A DNA stretch of 36,308 bases from an uncultured Patescibacteria group bacterium (lineage in GTDB: Bacteria; Patescibacteriota; Patescibacteriia; Veblenbacterales; UBA10138): the NCBI GenBank assembly GCA_937929825.1, contig CALFUV010000006.1, positions 1 through 36,308 on the forward strand, in the 5' to 3' direction. Positions 2 through 19,779 of this stretch are shown here, in pieces; within the stretch, counting starts at the first letter, position 1; every line of letters begins with the position of its first letter. The notes beneath the pieces were generated by a model. It did no database searches. It was not told where the DNA came from and saw nothing but the letters and a program-made list of their open reading frames with translations. Made by a program: the position numbers and the translations under genes.

Positions 2-3000
2 GTCAACTACACCGCCGCTTCGCCAAATTGTAAAGTTACCACTTACCATCACTTAAACTTTACCGGCTCGGGTACAGTGACTTGCGCAGTAACAACGGTG
101 AATGGCAATTTGGGAACCAGCGGTTCAGTTTCTTGGACTACCAGTTCTGATATTAATATTGCCGGTAATTTAGAATTGGATATTGGCACTACTTTAGCCG
201 GCACTAATAATATTACAGTTGGAGGCAATCATGCTGGGGGTTCTGGTACTCTTAATTTAACCGGCGGAACATTTAATATAATATATTATTTAGAGTTTGG
301 TTATTCCGGAGGCACCAATGTTTATAATCTAAACATTGGTGATGGTTCGCAATCAGCTAATGTTATTCAAACAACACCAGTACAAGTGGCTAATAATTTA
401 GTGATAAATAATCTAGGTACACTGGATTCTGGTAATAATGATCAGGATTTAATAATCGGCGGTAACTTTACTATTAATAATGGCGGCACGTATAACGCGC
501 CCGGTTCTGCTGTTTGGAAAATAGCTGGTAATTACACTAATAACGGCGGCACATTACTTAATCGTTTTGGCACTTTAGAGCTTTATGGCTCAACCAGTTC
601 TACTTTGGATTCAGGCTGTAATGATATTAGTAATTGTACTGATCAGGAATTTTACAATTTAGTTATTAATAAAACGGATAATAACAACGCCAATGATAAT
701 GTTACCCTAACTAATAATTTAAGAGTTTTTAACAGAATAACTATTACCGACGGCGAGCTTATCCAAGGCGCTTACAATGTTTGGGCAGGCGGCGCTGATA
801 TTGAAAGTTTGGGTATAGATGTTAGTTCAGACGGTAAATGGACTAGTATCAGCACTGGCGATTTGGTCTTAGGAGCTAACGTGCAAAATGCCGGCGTTAT
901 GATTTTTAATTCCAACAATGGTACTCAATGCGTGGATGGAAATGATGATATAGCAATTAGCTCAAGTCAAGAAGAGCAAGTACGCACCTGGTTTGGCGCC
1001 GGCACCTTTATTATCTATAATGTGAACGCTACGGATATGGCAGATTCATCTATTACCGCTTACACCTCTATTTTAAATAATAGCACTTGGTCAGTAGGGT
1101 TTTGCGGCATTACAGTGACTGGTGTTTTCTACCAAGAGGATGAATCTACACCTGATCCGGGTCAGTGTGGTGGTACGGCTAATCTATCTTTACGAGTTAA
1201 TGGTGGTTCTGAAATAACCACTACCTGTACAGCTGGCACTGGTGTTTTTGAATTCAGCGGTGTGGCCGCTTCTGCTGGTCAAACTATTACTATTTATTCC
1301 ACCGGCGTTAATAAGGCTAACTTAGTTTATATTTCTGATGGCACATCTGACTCGGGTATGGATTTATATGAAAATACAGTAGTCATAGGCAATGTTAATG
1401 GCGGTGCCACCACTATTGCCGATCTGTGGAATTATGATAGTACACACAACGATACTGACATGCTTTTTGACGCCGTGGATGATACCACCGATAGTTTAAC
1501 TTTAGAAGATGGGGTGGAACTGCACATTAGGGATAATTTCACTCCCGGCGGTATTATCATCACCAGCCCCTCCAGCAGCGCTTCTTCTAAAGATGGTGAT
1601 TTGCATATTGCCAGCGGGTCAACTTTAAATATGCAGGGTAATAACTTAAGTATTGGCGGTGATTATATTAATCAGGGAACTTTTAGCCAAAACGCCAGCA
1701 GTCAAACTACTATTTTTACTGCTACTGCTACAGGTCATAGTATCACTTTTGGCACAGGGTCTTATATGAGAATGACTTTTAATGGTTCGGGCGGGGAGTG
1801 GACTTTGCAGGATAATCTGCAGATTAATTCCTGGATTCAAATGTCAGCTGGTACTGTTACAGGCTCGGTTGATATTACCATGCAAGGGGGTTATGTTTGG
1901 GGTAGTAATGGTGTGTTTAATATGACTGGCGGTACTTTTAAACAAATTTTCTCGCAAAACAGGGAGTTTATTGGTATTAATAGTTCTGCTGCCCAAACAT
2001 TTCACAATATTACCTTATCTTCATTTAATTCCAGTACTTATACAGCTTCAGCTTCCGGCACAACTAAGACCATTAATATTAACGGAACATTAAAAATAAC
2101 CGATACGGGCGATACTGGCAGTATTGTTCTTAACGCTGGTAGTTACACTTATAATCTAGCTGGAGCCGATAACTGCAATCCGTTTGATATGGATCAGAAC
2201 AATGGCTCACTAACGCCAGAAACATCTACTTTTATATTCTCCGGCGCTTGTTCTTCAGGCAACGTTGCTGTTGAGAACGCTACTTATAATAATTTAACTT
2301 TGAGCGGCACGGACAATTTTGTTTTTGAAGGAGCTGCCAGCATTAATGGTAATTTAGTAGTTGATAGCAATGCTACTTTAATTGGAGATAATGATTTACT
2401 TATTGATGGCGGCAGTATTACCGGTGCCGGCCATATTAATTTAACCAGCGGTACTGTTACTTTGAGAGGCAGTGGTAATTTAGGCAGCAATAACAATTGG
2501 AATTTTTATAATTTAGTGCTTAGTGATAACGGTTCGCCTGGCACTACTACCGCCACTGGTAATGGTAATTTAACAATAGCTAAAGATTTATTAGTGGACG
2601 GTGGTCATACTTTTGTAGCGCCGAATTATTTAAATGTGGGCGGCGAATTAATAAATAACGGCACCTGGAATCATAATTCTGGCACAATTAATCTTACCGG
2701 TTCAGGTCCGCATAGCATTATCAATAATAATAGCAGTTTTAATAATTTAACTCTTAATAACGCTAATGGTGTTTGGCATGCCCTAGGCAACTACTTGAAT
2801 GTAGTTGGCACACTTAATCTTAATGCCGGTAAATTATATGTTAACGGTAATTTACAAGCCGGCTCTATAATTGGTGATGGTGAATTGGAAGTAACCGGTG
2901 AGCATACGGCATATTTAGTGAATGTTAAGTATAGTAATGATCGATCTTGCGCTATTGCAGGTGATGATAATAGCTTGTATTGTTGGGGATCAAATAGTTA

Positions 3001-6000
3001 TGGTCAATTAGGCAATGGTAATTTTAATACCTCTTTAGTACCTAGCAGAGTGCTTAAAGGCGAAGCTGCTGGAGCTGATCAGGATAGCACTAATACTTAT
3101 TTAGCTAATGTTAAATCAGTATCTTATGGCAATGGCCGTCATCGTTGCGCTGTTACTTATTCTGGCAATATGTATTGTTGGGGCCAAGGTAATAGTGGAG
3201 AAATTGGCATCAATAACCCCAGTTATACTAGTTATAGTTCACCTAAAAGAGTACTTAAAGGTGAGGCAGTAGCCACAGATAACGACGGCACTTATTTAAC
3301 AAATATTAAAACTATTGAAGGTTTGGGAGATGGTTTAACCTGCGCGCTTTCTAATGCCGGGATGCCTTATTGTTGGGGTTATGGTTTAACTGGGGGAATA
3401 GGTAATGGTAATTTTTCTAACCGGGCAGTACCTACTCGTATATTGAAAGGTCAAGCAGTGGCGGCAGATACTGACGGTACTTATTTAATTAATATTAAAT
3501 CAATTTTTGCCGGTGATGGTAACGCTTGCGCTATATCAAATTCGGGCAATATGTATTGTTGGGGAGAAAATACTTATGGTCAGGTGGGTAATAATATTTA
3601 TGGCACAAATTATTCAACTCCGCAGCGAGTGCTTAAAGGCGAAGCGGCGGCGGCAGATACTGACGGTACTTATTTAACCAATGTTAAACAGGGTGATGGT
3701 GGTCAGGTAAGTATTTGTGCTGTTACCACCGCAGGTAATGTTTATTGCTGGGGTAATCAAAATTATTATCGTCTTGGCAATGGTTTAACTGGCACGGTTG
3801 CCAAGCCAACGCCAATTAGAGTGCTTAAAGGTGAAGCGGCGGCGGCAGATTCTGATGGCACTTATTTAATTAATGCCAGACAGGTATCAACTGATTGGAT
3901 TAGCAGCACAGTTGTTACTAATAGCGGCAATGTTTATACTTTTGGTGTTAACTGGCAAGGAACCCTGGGAACTAATTATACTGGCGGTACTACAGCTACT
4001 AAAGTTAGAAAAGGTGAAGCGGCGGCGGCAGATACTGACGGTACTTATTTAACCAATGTTAAGGCAGCTTGGGGAGCTTATCGCAGCGGTTGTGCCTTAA
4101 CTTATTCAGGTAATTATTATTGCTGGGGTGATGATACTTTTACTCCGGTGCGAGTTCATAAAGGCGAGGCCAATCAAGCTAGTTATGGCAATGTTACCGT
4201 AGATGGCCATGGTAATTTAGGCAGCAATACTAATTGGGTATTTAATGATTTAACCATTGGTGATGGTTCAGGTTCAGGCACTACTACTTTAACCGGTACA
4301 GGTTCATTCATTATTAAAGGTGATGTATCTGTAGCTACCGGACAAACATTATCAGGAAATAAAAATATTACCATAGGCGGCACTGGTATAGTTACAAGAA
4401 GATCAAGCGTAGCTCAAGCAGTAAATTCTACCACTACCACTGATTTGACTATTAGTAAGCCAGAAGATTTGGCTACTGATGATTTAATGATTGCCTTTTT
4501 GTGTTCTGATAGTGATACAACAAATTCTATAAGTAATGAACCTTCTAGTTGGACTAGAATTAGCACAGAGACTGGTAGCGGTTTAACTTGTGATGCTTAT
4601 TATAAGCGAGCTACCAGTAATGAGCCGACTGATTATACTTGGTCTAGAACGTCAGCTGAACCAGCTAATAGTTTAGTAGGTTTTATTGCGGCTTTTTATA
4701 GCCGAGGCGGTGGTTTGGTTTATTATGACACAGGTTCAGGTAATAGTTTTTCATCCGGTACTACTCACACTTTAACGGGTATTACTACCACTAAAAATAA
4801 TGCGACCTTAATTGGTTTATTTGCTCACGATGGTAATGCTGGTGCTTCTATTGGTTATTATAATTATTCATCACCCTTAACCCAAATTCTTCGTTATGCC
4901 AGTGAAGTAACTATGACTATGGCTATGGGCGTTCAAGCTTCCGCTGGTACTAGTGGCAACAAGAGTGCTACAGCTACAGCATCAGATGATGGTGGTGGTT
5001 TTCTTATATCTTTATATTCTGCTGGTGTTGGCATAAATGATGTTACAGGCAACGGTGTAATTAATATAACTGGCGGCGATTTCTCTATTGAAGGAGGCGG
5101 TAATTTTGGTGGAAATAATAACTGGACCTTTAATAATCTTACCTTTGGCGATGGGGTCAGTACAGCTACCACCACTTCCACTGGTTCCGGCAATATAACA
5201 ATTAACAATATCCTGACAGTTGCTACTAATCACACCTTGGATACTAAGGGTAAAATCTGGACTATGGCCGGTGATGTAGCCAACCCCTTAATTATCAACG
5301 GTAACTTAACAGACAGTACTAATAATTCAAGCTATGTTTTTACAGGTAATAATCCTGCTGGCAATACTGTAATTCCCGCTCTAGGTAATATTAATAATTT
5401 GACTTTGAATAACGGCGCGGAAACTTATCAAACCTCAAGCAATCTGGTTTTATCGGGCAATCTTACAATAACCGCTGGTACTCTTATTAGCAGCGATGAT
5501 ATTACGGTTAGGGGCGGTTCGGTTACTGGTGCTGGTGTTATTACCCATTCTGGCGGTAATTTTAAAGTAGAAGGCAGTGGCACTTTTGGCGGTAATGGGG
5601 ATTGGCAATTTAATCATCTTATTTTTGGTGATGGTATAACTTCGGGTGGTACTACTGTTTCTGGCACTGGTTCAATTACAGCTAATACTTTAACAGTTGC
5701 CGCTAATCACGAACTTTATGGTGGTAGTAAAAATTACATTTTAACAGGCATTGGCACGCCACTGACAATTGATGGGACATTTACTCCTGCTTCATCTACT
5801 ATAATTTACAAAGGAGCTGGTGCGGTCAATATTTCCAATATTCCTTATTATAATCTGGAAGCCAAACCTACTTCTGGTAATCCCACTTATACTTTACCAA
5901 CTGGCACTTTGAATATTACGAATAATTTGGTAATCGGTGATGGCACTAATAATGTAACAGTTACAGCTGATACAAACGACGGGCCAGTGAATGTAAATGG

Positions 6001-7129
6001 TTCTTTAACCATTGCTAATAATGGTGTTTTAACTGCTTCAGATTCAGGACTTTTAACAGTGCGCGGCAATTGGACTAACAACGGCACTTTTAATCACAGC
6101 AATGGCACTGTTAAAATTCAGCCTTATACCGAAACGCCCGTTATTATAGGCGGCAGTCAGACTACTACTTTTTATAATTTCCAGAGTAGCCCAACCTCCA
6201 ACTCGCAAAATATTACTTTACAGTTTAAGTCTGGGCAGGCAACTGGTTTTCAGGGTGCGGTTACTATAAATGGCCAGCGGGGCCAGCCGGTTTATATTCA
6301 ATCGGATAACTTTAATCAACAGTGGACTTTTAATTTAACCGGCACTGCCAACATTACTTATGCTGTTATTCGTGATTCCGGTTGTGCGGGTGGTTCAGGC
6401 AACATTATACAAAGTGAATCAAATTTGGATTATGGCAACAATGGCGCTTGCTGGCGTTTAATTTCCCGCAGTGCTCCTGTAGGTGGCCAGTCTGGGGGTG
6501 GAACACCAGTGGGCGGCGGTGGAGCTGGTAGCGGCAGCGGTGGAGTTTCCTGTGAAGGCGCCAGCGGTTTATGCGATGATTTTGAAAGATCATCTTTGGG
6601 CAGTAATTGGACTGCAGTTTCAGGCTCGCCGCAGATTTATAATAATTCTGATTTTGGCGGCGAAACTGGTAGCAGTTATAATTTGGCTTATTGGTCTGCC
6701 AGTAGTTTAAGCAATAATCAATACAGCGAGATAGTTATTGCTGATTTAACAGAACAAGATGGCAATCAGGTTATAGCGGCAGTCAGAGTAACTGATAACC
6801 ATAATTTTTATGGTTTAGCCGCTGATGTTACCTCTTTTAATATATTTAAAGTAGTTAATGGAACATTGACTAATTTACTTAATTTAGGGTCAGCGCCAGA
6901 AAATGGTGATGTTATTCGTTTAGAAATCTCAGGTTCTACTTTAAAGGCTTATGTTAATGGGGTGTTGCGTAATCAAACTACAGATTCTTCGTTATCATCA
7001 GGCGCTCCGGGTTTGGGAGTTTACAAAAATCTTACTAGACCATTGTCTAGAATTGAATTATGGCGGGCCGGTGACGCTGCTCAAACCGGCGGCGGACCCG
7101 GGGGTGGTGGTGGTGGTGATACACCATAA
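2..7129 (+). CDS. Giant secreted/surface adhesin-like protein, 5' partial: beta-helix-like repeats, nested RCC1-like propeller, other nested module, C-terminal LamG/concanavalin-like domain
   Basis: Listed ORF begins at GTG 77, but the frame is open back to base 2 (VNYTAASPNCKVTTYHHLNFTGSGT...), so the real start is upstream. Recurrent 'GNL..NNWxFxNLxxGDG...TTTxTGxG' repeats, seven CA..YCWG blades, Gly-rich linkers, terminal FERSSLGSNW..LEISGSTLKAYVNG domain. Confidence 0.85.
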   Translation, partial: VNYTAASPNCKVTTYHHLNFTGSGTVTCAVTTVNGNLGTSGSVSWTTSSDINIAGNLELDIGTTLAGTNNITVGGNHAGGSGTLNLTGGTFNIIYYLEFGYSGGTNVYNLNIGDGSQSANVIQTTPVQVANNLVINNLGTLDSGNNDQDLIIGGNFTINNGGTYNAPGSAVWKIAGNYTNNGGTLLNRFGTLELYGSTSSTLDSGCNDISNCTDQEFYNLVINKTDNNNANDNVTLTNNLRVFNRITITDGELIQGAYNVWAGGADIESLGIDVSSDGKWTSISTGDLVLGANVQNAGVMIFNSNNGTQCVDGNDDIAISSSQEEQVRTWFGAGTFIIYNVNATDMADSSITAYTSILNNSTWSVGFCGITVTGVFYQEDESTPDPGQCGGTANLSLRVNGGSEITTTCTAGTGVFEFSGVAASAGQTITIYSTGVNKANLVYISDGTSDSGMDLYENTVVIGNVNGGATTIADLWNYDSTHNDTDMLFDAVDDTTDSLTLEDGVELHIRDNFTPGGIIITSPSSSASSKDGDLHIASGSTLNMQGNNLSIGGDYINQGTFSQNASSQTTIFTATATGHSITFGTGSYMRMTFNGSGGEWTLQDNLQINSWIQMSAGTVTGSVDITMQGGYVWGSNGVFNMTGGTFKQIFSQNREFIGINSSAAQTFHNITLSSFNSSTYTASASGTTKTININGTLKITDTGDTGSIVLNAGSYTYNLAGADNCNPFDMDQNNGSLTPETSTFIFSGACSSGNVAVENATYNNLTLSGTDNFVFEGAASINGNLVVDSNATLIGDNDLLIDGGSITGAGHINLTSGTVTLRGSGNLGSNNNWNFYNLVLSDNGSPGTTTATGNGNLTIAKDLLVDGGHTFVAPNYLNVGGELINNGTWNHNSGTINLTGSGPHSIINNNSSFNNLTLNNANGVWHALGNYLNVVGTLNLNAGKLYVNGNLQAGSIIGDGELEVTGEHTAYLVNVKYSNDRSCAIAGDDNSLYCWGSNSYGQLGNGNFNTSLVPSRVLKGEAAGADQDSTNTYLANVKSVSYGNGRHRCAVTYSGNMYCWGQGNSGEIGINNPSYTSYSSPKRVLKGEAVATDNDGTYLTNIKTIEGLGDGLTCALSNAGMPYCWGYGLTGGIGNGNFSNRAVPTRILKGQAVAADTDGTYLINIKSIFAGDGNACAISNSGNMYCWGENTYGQVGNNIYGTNYSTPQRVLKGEAAAADTDGTYLTNVKQGDGGQVSICAVTTAGNVYCWGNQNYYRLGNGLTGTVAKPTPIRVLKGEAAAADSDGTYLINARQVSTDWISSTVVTNSGNVYTFGVNWQGTLGTNYTGGTTATKVRKGEAAAADTDGTYLTNVKAAWGAYRSGCALTYSGNYYCWGDDTFTPVRVHKGEANQASYGNVTVDGHGNLGSNTNWVFNDLTIGDGSGSGTTTLTGTGSFIIKGDVSVATGQTLSGNKNITIGGTGIVTRRSSVAQAVNSTTTTDLTISKPEDLATDDLMIAFLCSDSDTTNSISNEPSSWTRISTETGSGLTCDAYYKRATSNEPTDYTWSRTSAEPANSLVGFIAAFYSRGGGLVYYDTGSGNSFSSGTTHTLTGITTTKNNATLIGLFAHDGNAGASIGYYNYSSPLTQILRYASEVTMTMAMGVQASAGTSGNKSATATASDDGGGFLISLYSAGVGINDVTGNGVINITGGDFSIEGGGNFGGNNNWTFNNLTFGDGVSTATTTSTGSGNITINNILTVATNHTLDTKGKIWTMAGDVANPLIINGNLTDSTNNSSYVFTGNNPAGNTVIPALGNINNLTLNNGAETYQTSSNLVLSGNLTITAGTLISSDDITVRGGSVTGAGVITHSGGNFKVEGSGTFGGNGDWQFNHLIFGDGITSGGTTVSGTGSITANTLTVAANHELYGGSKNYILTGIGTPLTIDGTFTPASSTIIYKGAGAVNISNIPYYNLEAKPTSGNPTYTLPTGTLNITNNLVIGDGTNNVTVTADTNDGPVNVNGSLTIANNGVLTASDSGLLTVRGNWTNNGTFNHSNGTVKIQPYTETPVIIGGSQTTTFYNFQSSPTSNSQNITLQFKSGQATGFQGAVTINGQRGQPVYIQSDNFNQQWTFNLTGTANITYAVIRDSGCAGGSGNIIQSESNLDYGNNGACWRLISRSAPVGGQSGGGTPVGGGGAGSGSGGVSCEGASGLCDDFERSSLGSNWTAVSGSPQIYNNSDFGGETGSSYNLAYWSASSLSNNQYSEIVIADLTEQDGNQVIAAVRVTDNHNFYGLAADVTSFNIFKVVNGTLTNLLNLGSAPENGDVIRLEISGSTLKAYVNGVLRNQTTDSSLSSGAPGLGVYKNLTRPLSRIELWRAGDAAQTGGGPGGGGGGDTP
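2911..4175 (+). repeat. Seven tandem RCC1-like repeats (about 60 aa each) within the adhesin
   Basis: Repeated motif C-A-[IVL]-x-x-x-G-N-x-Y-C-W-G ... R-V-L-K-G-E-A-x-A-x-D-x-D-G-T-Y-L-x-N-[VI]-K read directly in the translation, seven times. Confidence 0.85.
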
Positions 7130-7281: not shown

Positions 7282-8229
7282 ATGTACTTTAGAATGTTAG
7301 CTTTTGCCATAGTTTTAACTATAGGCATGTCTTTAATGTTGCTATTTATTAATAGCAATTTGCAAAAAAGGCTGGATAAAATTGTCCATAATCAGCAAGC
7401 TTATAAAAGCTTACAGCAGGAATTAAATCAATTCATTGGTTTTGCTAATCCACGCGCTTATCAGCTGGATACAGCTGGGGTTTTTTTATTTGCTGGTGAG
7501 CAATATAGTTTAAATGACTGGTATTTTAGAGAACGTTTGCAAGATGAATTATGGCGCCTATATGACCGCCGGGGGTGGTTGTATTTGCAGGCCCAGCGTT
7601 TGGGGCGTTACCGGCCAATGATTGAGGCTGAATTGACAGCCCAGGGTTTGCCGCAAGACTTGCTTTATTTATTTATTTGGGAATCAGGTCTTGATCCCAA
7701 AGCTGTTTCTTGGGCTGGAGCTGCTGGTCTTGCTCAATTTATGCCCGGTACAGCCAGACAATTCAAACTGGCAGTAGCTAGTTTATACGATGAACGTAAA
7801 AATCCAGTAGATGCTGTACGAGCAGCCTGCCGTTATTTAAAAGTTTTATATGGCTATTTTAATGATTGGCAATTGGCTATGGCTTCCTATAACCATGGTG
7901 AGAACGCGGTGCGCAGTAAATTAAGTAGTCAGAAAGTCAAGCAGTTTACAGAACTGTATTTACCCAATGAAACTTATCGCTATGTGTTTCAGATTATGGC
8001 GGTAAGTTATGTATTCAAAAATGGTTTATTGGGCGATATAACCTGGCTTCAACCACATCAGCCATATCCGGCTTATAAAAAAACTCAAACTAAAATAACT
8101 AAAGCGGTTTCCTTATATAAATTAAGCGAGGAATTAGGTGTTGATTTTAACACTTTTCGTTTGCTTAATCCTCATTTGCCGGTTTATTTATCCGCTGGAA
8201 CTTATCCAATAAATTTGCCGGCTTCATAA
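7282..8229 (+). CDS. Membrane-anchored lytic transglycosylase (SLT/MltD-like)
   Basis: N-terminal TM segment; LPQDLLYLFIWESGLDPKAVSWAGAAGLAQFMPGTAR is the SLT catalytic signature; LysM-like C-terminus (LYKLSEELGVDFNTFRLLNPHLP). AAAAGGAG upstream. Confidence 0.85.
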   Translation: MYFRMLAFAIVLTIGMSLMLLFINSNLQKRLDKIVHNQQAYKSLQQELNQFIGFANPRAYQLDTAGVFLFAGEQYSLNDWYFRERLQDELWRLYDRRGWLYLQAQRLGRYRPMIEAELTAQGLPQDLLYLFIWESGLDPKAVSWAGAAGLAQFMPGTARQFKLAVASLYDERKNPVDAVRAACRYLKVLYGYFNDWQLAMASYNHGENAVRSKLSSQKVKQFTELYLPNETYRYVFQIMAVSYVFKNGLLGDITWLQPHQPYPAYKKTQTKITKAVSLYKLSEELGVDFNTFRLLNPHLPVYLSAGTYPINLPAS

Positions 8230-9492: not shown

Positions 9493-11586
9493 TTATTTTC
9501 CTAAAATTGGTACGCGATAAATATTATTACCAGCTGCCACGAAAAGTATTTTATTGATGCCATCCACAGAAACTGACCAAATATTCTGTAAGGTAGGCAA
9601 AGTAATTTGGCTAATTAATTTACCGCTTTTATCATAAACTATTAGTCTCATTTTTACCGCTTCCCAAAGGTATAGAAAATCTTTATCATTAGCAGTAAAT
9701 ATTTGGTTAACTGACTGAAGCGGCGGTGTAACTGGTTTTAGAGTAAAATCCTGTTTTATACCCCGTAAGTATTTATCTACTTTATTGGGTAGGGCTACAT
9801 ATATTGCGCCGTCTACCGCCAAACCAACAGCTTCTGTGAGCAGGCCTTGTGATTCTCTTAACCAGCGCACCGGTGAGCTAAAACCATTTCCTTGGCGTGT
9901 TATCCGCCAAATACTTGGTTGTTCCAAACTTAAATAATAAAGCCCGCTTTGGTAAAAGTTAGCATCTTTAATTTTAAGATTCTGACTAGCTAAGTTGAAA
10001 CGGTTGGTATTTAGATTAAAAGTATAAGCCTGGTTATTGGCAGTAATCAACAAAATTTCATTTGGCATAACAGTCAGTAATGATATATCTCTAATTTCTG
10101 CTGGTAAATCATAAGAGGAAGAAATAACCCCTTTTTGATTTATCCGCAGTAGTTTATTTTGAGAAACTGCCAATAGTTCTTTATCAACAACCTGTAATTT
10201 TTGCCAGTTTTCCTGTGAAGGCAATTGTGTCCAAAGAGCTGGTTCGGTAATTTCATTAAGATAAAGCAAACGTTTTGAAAGAATTTTTAAATTATTGGAT
10301 AAAACTTGCCACTGTTCATCGCGGGTAGGTGAGTTGCGAGGCAGTTTATCAAGTAGCTTTTGTGCTTCTTCATAAAGAACTGCGGCTTTTTCAGTATCAC
10401 CGTAAATAAGAAGACTTTCAATGCCGACTTGTTTTTCAGTAATTTTAGTTACTAATTGATTATAACGTTCATTATCTTCGGCTGTAATGTTATATCGTCC
10501 AATATTTACAATGCTTTGAGAAAAAGCAATTAGCAGGGCAATACTCAACAAAAAAAGAGCACGTTTAGTTTTAGCTAATTGTCGCCACTGAATAATTTTA
10601 CTTTCCAGCCACCAAGCGATGGTTGATTTAGCTGATTCACGGTTAGTTAACCAGGCTAGCCGGCGCCATAATTTTGCTATTCTAGTCACGCTTAATACTG
10701 CCCGTTCTTTTTTATCAGCTGCCATTGGCTGTTTATCAGATTCAGCTACAGGTGGTTGGACTGAGTTGGCTGTTGATTGTTTTTTAATTAAAGCTGAAGG
10801 GGTAAAAATAGATAACTTGTTTTTTAGATATGCAAAAAGTTTTGGCTGCAATAGGGAGTTGGTGGCAGCTTTGGTTTGTAATAAACGATTGATGGACTGG
10901 TTCGTTGATTCAGTTTCCTCTGTTAAAGATAGTTTTAGGGCAATAAGTCCTAGAGGGGCATGTGTTTGAAGCTGTAGTATGTAACGCTCAATTTCACGCA
11001 AGGCTTGACCGGGCGGCCGATCAGCTAATAATTGACCTAACTTTTCCCAAGAAAAATAATCAGTGAGAGCTGGTGAAGCCAGTAGTAGAGTTTCACCAGC
11101 TATCAGTTCCCCGGAAATAATATTCTCAAAACTAATATTGCGAATATTGGGGCGCTTAGTTGTAGATAAGAGAATATTATTAATTTTTTGCAGACTAATC
11201 ACAAAAGCATTAATCTGACCAAGGCTGGATAAAGCCAGTTGTTGTCCGCTCAAGTAAGCCAGTAAAAGTTGACAACGGGGAGAAAGCGGGTTGCCAAATA
11301 AGCGATCATTATTGGCTAGTTGTAGATTAATAGGCAGAAGAATAGATTCCAAAACAGCGTCAGCTGAACCCGAATGATTTTTGGCTGTCTGCCAAGAGGT
11401 TTCAATTTTAGCATTTATTTTTTGTAAAAATTCCTGTCTGATTTGCGGCGCCAGATTAAGTTCAGCTAAAAAGAGTAACATACCCGCAGGTCCCGGCCAA
11501 ACACTGGCCACTACATGGGTTTCACGAGTAGGCAAAGCCAAGGTGGCGACTTTGGTGGTAATAGTTGGTTTAATAGCGGTTTTCAT
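9493..11586 (-). CDS. Membrane protein with N-terminal PP2C/PPM-like (probably degenerate) domain, one TM helix, and C-terminal extracytoplasmic beta-propeller-like region
   Basis: LLLAYLSGQQLALSSLGQINAFVI and GETLLLASPALTDYFSWEKL resemble PPM strands; TM at KRALFLLSIALLIAFSQSIVNIG; repeated beta-rich segments at C-terminus. Confidence 0.5.
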   Translation of the reverse strand: MKTAIKPTITTKVATLALPTRETHVVASVWPGPAGMLLFLAELNLAPQIRQEFLQKINAKIETSWQTAKNHSGSADAVLESILLPINLQLANNDRLFGNPLSPRCQLLLAYLSGQQLALSSLGQINAFVISLQKINNILLSTTKRPNIRNISFENIISGELIAGETLLLASPALTDYFSWEKLGQLLADRPPGQALREIERYILQLQTHAPLGLIALKLSLTEETESTNQSINRLLQTKAATNSLLQPKLFAYLKNKLSIFTPSALIKKQSTANSVQPPVAESDKQPMAADKKERAVLSVTRIAKLWRRLAWLTNRESAKSTIAWWLESKIIQWRQLAKTKRALFLLSIALLIAFSQSIVNIGRYNITAEDNERYNQLVTKITEKQVGIESLLIYGDTEKAAVLYEEAQKLLDKLPRNSPTRDEQWQVLSNNLKILSKRLLYLNEITEPALWTQLPSQENWQKLQVVDKELLAVSQNKLLRINQKGVISSSYDLPAEIRDISLLTVMPNEILLITANNQAYTFNLNTNRFNLASQNLKIKDANFYQSGLYYLSLEQPSIWRITRQGNGFSSPVRWLRESQGLLTEAVGLAVDGAIYVALPNKVDKYLRGIKQDFTLKPVTPPLQSVNQIFTANDKDFLYLWEAVKMRLIVYDKSGKLISQITLPTLQNIWSVSVDGINKILFVAAGNNIYRVPILGK

Positions 11587-18107: not shown

Positions 18108-19283
18108 ATGGCTAAAACATTTCCTACTGTTTCATCAGGTAATATTTTAGACGAAATACTTAATAACGCTATTGAATATGGTGCCAGCGATGTTCATTTT
18201 GAACCCAATGGACAGCAGTTTAATGTCCGTTTTCGCGTGGATGGATTGCTTTATCAAATTGGTGGTTTCACTGACTTTCCTCAAGAAGCTATAACCTCCC
18301 GCATTAAAGTAGTAGCGGAAATGGATTTGTTTGAACATCGTTTGCCGCAAGATGGTCATTTTGAGTTTGTTTATAAAGAAAAAATTTATAATGTTCGGGT
18401 TTCCACTTCACCCACTATTCATGGACAAGCTGTTGTTTTAAGAATTTTTAACCGGGAGGCTTTTGTTAAAGAACTTTCCGAATTAGGTTTTGAAGAAGAG
18501 CAGTTAGCTACTGTTAAAAATATTATAACTGCGCCTTATGGCATGATACTTATTACTGGACAAATAGGTTCAGGAAAAACAACTTTACTTTACTCCATTC
18601 TTAATAGTTTAAGTACTCCCCAGATAAATATTATTGCCTTGGAAAATCCAGTAGAGTTTACCGTGCCTAATATCAGACAACTGCAAGTAAATGAAGCTGC
18701 TGGTTTAACATTTTCATTAGCAATTCGTGCGGCAGTAAGACAAGACCCCGATGTTATAATGTTGGGTGAAATTAGGGATTCGGAAACAGCACAAATAGCC
18801 CTACAGTCGGCTCTCACGGGCACTTTGGTATTTTCAACTTTTCATACTTTTGATGTTGTCGGATTAATTATTCGTTTAAAGGAAATGGGTGTGCCGCGTT
18901 CCGTGTTGGCACATGCTTTGGCTGGTGTTGTCTCGACCAGACTAGTTAGAAAAATTTGTAGTGATTGCTCTGAACCCTATAAACTTTCTGCTTATGAAAT
19001 CAAATTATTAGGGGTATTGAGCAATGGTTTATCATTGCGTAAAGGTTTGGGTTGCGATAAATGTCATCACACTGGGTATCGCGGACGTATAGGCATTTTT
19101 GAAGTAGTGCAGTTTGATGACGAAATCAGAGAGGCGATTGTGGAGGACAGGTCAGTAGCAGAACTTAAGGATATTTTACGCAGTAAGATCAGTCTTAATC
19201 TACGACAAGCAGCTTTTAAAAAAGTAGTTGATGGTATTACCACCACAGACGAATTAAAAAGAGTTTTAGGACCAGAATTGTAA
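18108..19283 (+). CDS. Type IV pilus / type II secretion ATPase (PilB/GspE-like)
   Basis: GASDVHFEP, Walker A GQIGSGKTT, ALENPVEF, RQDPDVIMLGEIRDSETAQIALQSALTGTLVFSTFHT, tetracysteine CSDCSEP..CDKCHHTGYRGRIGIFE. Confidence 0.92.
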   Translation: MAKTFPTVSSGNILDEILNNAIEYGASDVHFEPNGQQFNVRFRVDGLLYQIGGFTDFPQEAITSRIKVVAEMDLFEHRLPQDGHFEFVYKEKIYNVRVSTSPTIHGQAVVLRIFNREAFVKELSELGFEEEQLATVKNIITAPYGMILITGQIGSGKTTLLYSILNSLSTPQINIIALENPVEFTVPNIRQLQVNEAAGLTFSLAIRAAVRQDPDVIMLGEIRDSETAQIALQSALTGTLVFSTFHTFDVVGLIIRLKEMGVPRSVLAHALAGVVSTRLVRKICSDCSEPYKLSAYEIKLLGVLSNGLSLRKGLGCDKCHHTGYRGRIGIFEVVQFDDEIREAIVEDRSVAELKDILRSKISLNLRQAAFKKVVDGITTTDELKRVLGPEL

Positions 19284-19293
19284 TTAAACTAAA

Positions 19294-19779
19294 ATGCGCC
19301 AAGCAGGCTTTACCTTGATGGAGATAATCATAACTATAGCGATTATTGGCTTACTTTCTGCTTTAGCAGTGGTGTATTTGATCGGCAGTCGTGATAAGGC
19401 TCGCGATACCAAGCGTAAAGCTGATATAGCCCAAATCGGCCGTTATTTGTCGTTGTCTTGTTTTATGCCTCGTGGCGGCCCCGGTGACTATGATTTAGCT
19501 GAGGTAGCCGCAGAAATAATTATTACATATCCACAGTTTCAAAATTTTCTATCGAACCTACCCCAAGATCCAAAAACTGGCACCAACGCACAAACTAATT
19601 ACCGTTATGTAGTTGATGAACAGAATCGCTGTGCTCTTTATGCTAATTTAGAGTATAAAGACGAGCCGGTTACTTTAACTAACTTAAATGTACCGACACC
19701 CGGAGGGGGGCAGGGAGTATTACGCTCAGCTAGTGAAGGTTGGAATGGTACAGCTCTTTATTTTCAATTTTCCAACTAA
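19294..19779 (+). CDS. Type IV pilin-like / pseudopilin
   Basis: MRQAGFTLMEIIITIAIIGLLSALAVVYLIGSRDKARDTKRKADI: prepilin peptidase site G^FTLME plus hydrophobic helix. Confidence 0.9.
   Translation: MRQAGFTLMEIIITIAIIGLLSALAVVYLIGSRDKARDTKRKADIAQIGRYLSLSCFMPRGGPGDYDLAEVAAEIIITYPQFQNFLSNLPQDPKTGTNAQTNYRYVVDEQNRCALYANLEYKDEPVTLTNLNVPTPGGGQGVLRSASEGWNGTALYFQFSN

Follow-up and report, generated by a model that had tools for sequence, protein, structure and literature searches.

The locus and its genes

The window analysed here, a stretch of 36,308 nucleotides (C6:1-36308 of genome G000), comes from a Patescibacteria genome of 801,535 bases that is 98% complete. It opens with a giant reading frame whose 5' end is missing because the contig starts there, and in which an RCC1-type propeller lies among the repeat units of a long stalk (Table 1). 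No other gene of this genome gave RCC1_2 matches. The product is an adhesin-like giant protein that would be secreted; since the N-terminus of this copy is missing, its location outside the cell is deduced from the homologues described below. The placing of the propeller within a large secreted protein agrees with the first-pass annotation. All 28 Cys residues of the frame, including the 16 outside the propeller, can be grouped as neighbouring pairs, a pattern that would fit the expectation for an exported protein and that also speaks for the disulfide reading given below.

The protein ends in a Gly-rich tail (7070-7126) that closes with (A/D/S)(T/S)P, as do the giant proteins L133, L135 and L136. 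The tail ends of the four family members read GGGGGGDTP, GGGGGGATP, GGGSGATP and GGGGGGASP, and this tail is possibly a sorting or anchoring signal. Elsewhere in the window, a 697-aa open reading frame (9493-11586, minus strand) lies between L7/L12 and the mraZ/mraW cluster and had no match in Pfam and NCBIfam searches, and a T2SSE gene (type II/IV secretion ATPase) precedes a pilin-like gene whose product bears a methylation motif at its N-terminus (18108-19779, plus strand).

Table 1. Coordinates of the features of the giant protein and its downstream neighbour
Feature	Nucleotides	Strand	Residues (aa)	Details
Giant open reading frame hosting the propeller	2..7129	+	at least 2375	5'-truncated
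Stalk repeat unit U1, uninterrupted	2354..2668	+	785-889	unit alignment
Interrupted stalk unit, first half	2795..2899	+	932-966	alignment with propeller excised
RCC1 propeller module, seven blades	2900..4183	+	967-1394	Pfam, PDB phmmer, Cys-masked HMM, AF2, Foldseek
Blade 1	2924..3049	+		Cys 983/994 (nt 2948, 2981)
Blade 2	3086..3232	+		Cys 1049/1059 (nt 3146, 3176)
Blade 3	3281..3439	+		Cys 1114/1124 (nt 3341, 3371)
Blade 4	3470..3628	+		Cys 1176/1186 (nt 3527, 3557)
Blade 5	3659..3802	+		Cys 1239/1249 (nt 3716, 3746)
Blade 6	3851..3997	+		Thr at both Cys sites (aa 1303, 1313), Phe for Trp
Blade 7	4034..4141	+		Cys 1364/1374 (nt 4091, 4121)
Interrupted stalk unit, second half	4184..4393	+	1395-1464	alignment with propeller excised
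Stalk repeat unit U3	5027..5341	+	1676-1780	unit alignment
Stalk repeat unit U4, uninterrupted	5462..5812	+	1821-1937	unit alignment
SLT lytic transglycosylase	7282..8229	+		next gene

A seven-bladed RCC1 propeller with paired cysteines

The excised domain belongs to the RCC1-type beta-propellers according to the Pfam RCC1, RCC1_2 and RLD profiles, with matches to PF25390 (160.4 bits, cut-off 150, E=1e-46), PF00415 (112.8 bits, cut-off 21.7, E=1.1e-32) and PF13540 (99.7 bits, cut-off 22, E=5.4e-29), and a phmmer search of PDB sequences also supports this. A blade profile in which all Cys had been masked found exactly 7 matches in the window protein, so the Pfam models and the masked profile agree with the earlier count of seven blades in one open frame. 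The range first proposed for the module, 2911-4175, falls inside the extent determined here, while the residue range given with it, aa 940-1370, had to be corrected to the one in Table 1. The excised domain also matched Ntox28 (E=1.4e-4), but this hit falls below the cut-off and covers a linker between blades together with some of blade 3; we discarded it as chance similarity.

The two Cys are separated as C-x10-C in blade 1 and as C-x9-C in blades 2-5 and 7, and in these six of the seven blades the second Cys is that of CWG. Blade 6 (TVVTNSGNVYTFG) lacks both Cys and the Trp, and the residue positions thus bear out what had been read from the repeats at first sight.

Predicted structure

An AlphaFold model from the single sequence of the domain reached a pLDDT of only 31. 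A second model was built from an alignment of 19 sequences (A5), whose members were found through a DNA pattern in 19 viral_contigs stretches, the majority with RCC1 proteins; single-protein scans of viral_contigs returned no relatives. This model had a pLDDT of 72 and a pTM of 0.75, with blades 1-6 mostly at 80-94 and blade 7 at about 30-45, probably because few alignment rows cover blade 7. A Foldseek search of the PDB with the model placed UVR8, HERC2, HERC1, RPGR and RCC1 at the top (E down to 2e-27), UVR8 being the closest fold (TM by target up to 0.76). The seven blades found by profile would probably form a closed ring, in which blade 7 is modelled with low confidence.

The model sets the two Cys of a blade on adjacent strands of one hairpin. 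These are C17 and C28 on strands 15-20/26-30 in blade 1, C83 and C93 on 81-86/91-95 in blade 2, C148 and C158 on 146-150/156-160 in blade 3, C210 and C220 on 208-213/218-222 in blade 4, and C273 and C283 on 271-276/281-286 in blade 5. In the strand register of the model, the paired Cys lie within about one residue of directly opposite positions.

Concerted loss of the two cysteines

To see whether this loss is concerted in relatives too, 380 genomes from the phylum were searched for RCC1_2, larger stretches were then fetched, and blades were located with the Cys-masked profile. RCC1_2 repeats were present in 29 of the 380 sampled genomes (about 7-8%), many with the Cys pair. The 347 blades collected, which take in three loci from archaea and one from a myxobacterium, comprised 177 with both Cys, 137 with neither, 6 with the second only, none with the first only and 27 that were not scorable. 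Four of the six apparent single-Cys blades belong to one protein (L078), in which the first Cys is shifted by one residue, and were recounted as pairs. In Patescibacteria alone (269 blades in 35 proteins), 131 blades had both Cys, 136 neither and 2 a single one. The concerted loss first noticed in blade 6 therefore extends across relatives. One protein, an Euryarchaeota MAG fragment of 3276 aa (L034), carries about 37 RCC1 blades with the Cys pair in all scorable ones.

Loss of the Trp is only loosely linked to loss of the Cys, as 89 of 134 Cys-less blades still have the Trp (compared with 171 of 177 paired ones). The idea that the Trp is lost with the Cys pair as a single event was thus rejected as a rule.

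The earlier suggestion of an intra-blade disulfide is supported as probable by the paired losses together with the placement of both Cys on one hairpin, and each Cys-paired blade very probably contains one such bond, a well-supported prediction from sequence and model. A different explanation, which we regard as improbable, is that the paired Cys co-occur simply because Cys-bearing and Cys-less propeller types are inherited through blade duplication, with no disulfide formed. The association is indeed mostly between proteins, 22 being mostly paired and 18 mostly Cys-less, and amplification of propellers from single blades is the subject of one paper (PMC9218822). However, inside the 21 Cys-bearing propellers we counted 180 blades with both Cys, 5 with neither and 1 with a single Cys, against 0.16 and 10.7 predicted for the last two classes by independent loss, figures that are indicative only because blades of one protein and of related genomes are non-independent and kinship was uncorrected. 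Inheritance by duplication is also at odds with the position of the Cys sites on facing hairpin strands in the model and with the view that the equivalent pair of CRINKLY4 is a likely disulfide (PMC4617170).

Blades from viral contigs speak more for duplication, because there the second Cys often stands alone: 29 blades had the second Cys only, 32 had both and 114 had neither, in a sample that was selected by the YCWG pattern and includes seven paired blades of one plasmid-encoded protein (L098). In several blades of L099, L107, L104 and L109, the second Cys is kept within WCWG or YCWG while the first is missing. The paired-Cys rule is therefore not universal; most of these are phage-type RCC1 proteins, which presumably fold in the cytoplasm. 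The observation that had been named as evidence against a disulfide, routine loss of one Cys alone, was not made in Patescibacteria (2 of 269 blades) but was partly made in these YCWG-selected proteins.

It is also conceivable, at very low probability, that each Cys pair holds a metal or redox cofactor instead of forming a disulfide, for which the repeated pairing of two Cys is the sole support. On the other hand, a blade has just two Cys, set on adjacent strands, the blade alignment showed no additional conserved ligand that could serve as a third or fourth, and ordinary residues (Leu/Tyr/Phe and Ala/Ser/Val at the two sites) replace the Cys in Cys-less blades.

Of the enzymes of disulfide formation, the window genome has four DsbA-like Thioredoxin_4 matches (C4:85858-87880 and C23:1499-1975), three of them in a row, which favour the disulfide reading. 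No VKOR or DsbB match was found in this 98% complete genome, which counts against it. DsbA-like proteins occurred in all 14 genomes with paired Cys and in 9 of 13 without (p=0.04), and VKOR in 10 of 14 and 5 of 13, respectively (p=0.13), both values being uncorrected for kinship. The association of Cys-paired propellers with disulfide enzymes is thus weak.

Insertion into the stalk and homologues at the same locus

When aa 967-1394 were excised, the flanks aligned with three other repeat units of the window protein and also with a unit from a homologue in the family, the joint carrying one extra residue. Thus, the propeller interrupts a stalk repeat unit, as judged from few homologues. Its G+C content (0.41) is similar to that of the flanks and thus gives no sign of recent acquisition from a foreign source. 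The interrupted unit is followed directly by a second non-repeat domain (about 4394-5026, aa 1465-1675), apparently another insertion between units of the stalk, for which a Pfam search gave no match.

In G383, a genome of the same family and another genus, we identified a complete homologue of 1574 aa with 51-55% identity over two stretches. It has a signal-peptide-like N-terminus, and the gene after it encodes the same SLT lytic transglycosylase (60% identity); both features suggest that the window copy too would lie outside the cell. No RCC1 blade was found in the G383 homologue, and a LamG/DUF2341 module is present there. In G380, a genome of the same genus, the C-terminal domain occurs in two copies with the SLT neighbour too, and the contig ends there. 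One tentative possibility is that this family uses its giant stalk proteins as adhesins whose heads can be exchanged (stapled RCC1, LamG/DUF2341 and others) carried in loops of the solenoid repeat at one SLT-adjacent locus, where swaps would change the host or surface recognised.

Possible function

Little is known of the proteins by which Patescibacteria attach to the microbes on which they live. The reading that we consider likely is that a giant secreted stalk displays a closed, seven-bladed RCC1 propeller outside the Patescibacterium cell as a swappable binding head. In the oxidising exterior, a disulfide between neighbouring strands would staple the hairpin in six blades, and in blade 6 the staple would have been lost as a unit. 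By analogy, the propeller plugged into the stalk repeat would most likely bind a host or surface ligand. This binding role is proposed because of the precedent of PilX2 (PMC12206443) and because another sampled protein (L072) is a fusion in which a propeller with Cys-paired blades follows an N-terminal type IV pilin segment (PF07963, E=1.5e-8). Several other sampled RCC1 proteins start with hydrophobic pilin-like segments.

The propeller could instead be a rigid spacer or stalk cap without a ligand, its disulfides being purely stabilising. It sits mid-stalk rather than at the end and interrupts a repeat, the family homologue manages without it, and no catalytic or ligand motif was found in it, all of which would suit such a role. 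However, a propeller set into a stalk usually acts as a platform for display. The pilus-borne RCC1 propeller of PilX2, from another Patescibacterium, is moreover needed for host binding (PMC12206443), and we consider a spacer or cap rather unlikely.

What is new here is the set of Cys-pair counts, the interruption of a stalk repeat by the propeller and the finding that a family homologue occupying this locus has no propeller. The plug-in arrangement is the more interesting part, with few homologues behind it, and it makes the stapled propeller a concrete candidate for a head that recognises the host, and one that can be expressed. The counts suggest that many RCC1 propellers on bacterial surfaces have a CRINKLY4-like staple, and exported members could be recognised in sequence data by their Cys pair.

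Comparison with known systems

BLIP-II of Streptomyces is a free-standing secreted RCC1-type propeller that binds beta-lactamases. It shares the seven-bladed fold with the window domain and was also retrieved by Foldseek (3qi0_A, TM by target 0.67), so that an inhibitor domain of this kind might be considered. However, it is a distant relative ranked far below the eukaryotic RCC1 domains, and the window domain is embedded in a stalk; a BLIP-II-like role is highly unlikely. The Pfam families RCC1, RCC1_2 and WD40_RLD, for which the window domain scores well above the cut-offs, include many proteins without the Cys pair.

PilX2 of Nanosynbacter lyticus TM7x (Saccharibacteria) is likewise a Patescibacterium surface protein with a seven-bladed RCC1 propeller, is required for T4P-2 function and has been proposed to be an adhesin (PMC12206443). 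It is a minor-pilin-like protein of a type IV pilus, whereas the window encodes a giant stalk protein. A type IV pilin N-terminus ahead of the propeller would be expected of a PilX2-type adhesin; the contig begins downstream of this region of the window protein, and the G383 homologue has a signal-peptide-like N-terminus instead.

A parallel for the Cys pairs is the ectodomain of plant CRINKLY4/ACR4 (PDB 7a0j, 7a0k), with seven extracellular RCC1-like repeats in which the second Cys directly precedes WG. Its repeats have the core C(x~10)CWG, and the Cys likely form stabilising disulfides, one predicted inside each repeat (PMC4617170). The crystallised ACR4 chain in the PDB shows this motif in its repeats (a query fragment matched the chain in full), and a profile of the window domain and its relatives matches chain 7a0j (E=8e-13). 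Six of the seven window blades carry the motif, with x9 or x10. CRINKLY4 is, however, a receptor kinase with a TNFR-like region and repeats of about 39 aa, whereas the window protein has about 63 aa per blade, one blade without the Cys pair, a giant bacterial stalk and no TNFR or kinase Pfam match across its 2375 aa. It resembles a CR4 protein in how it works but does not belong to that class. The propeller had at first been called an unusual surface module, a description that is not supported, given the same repeats in plant CRINKLY4 and the share of Patescibacteria genomes with RCC1_2. We regard the module as an RCC1 propeller with a probable CRINKLY4-like staple, carried by a surface protein of Patescibacteria, and a functional precedent has already been published in the phylum.
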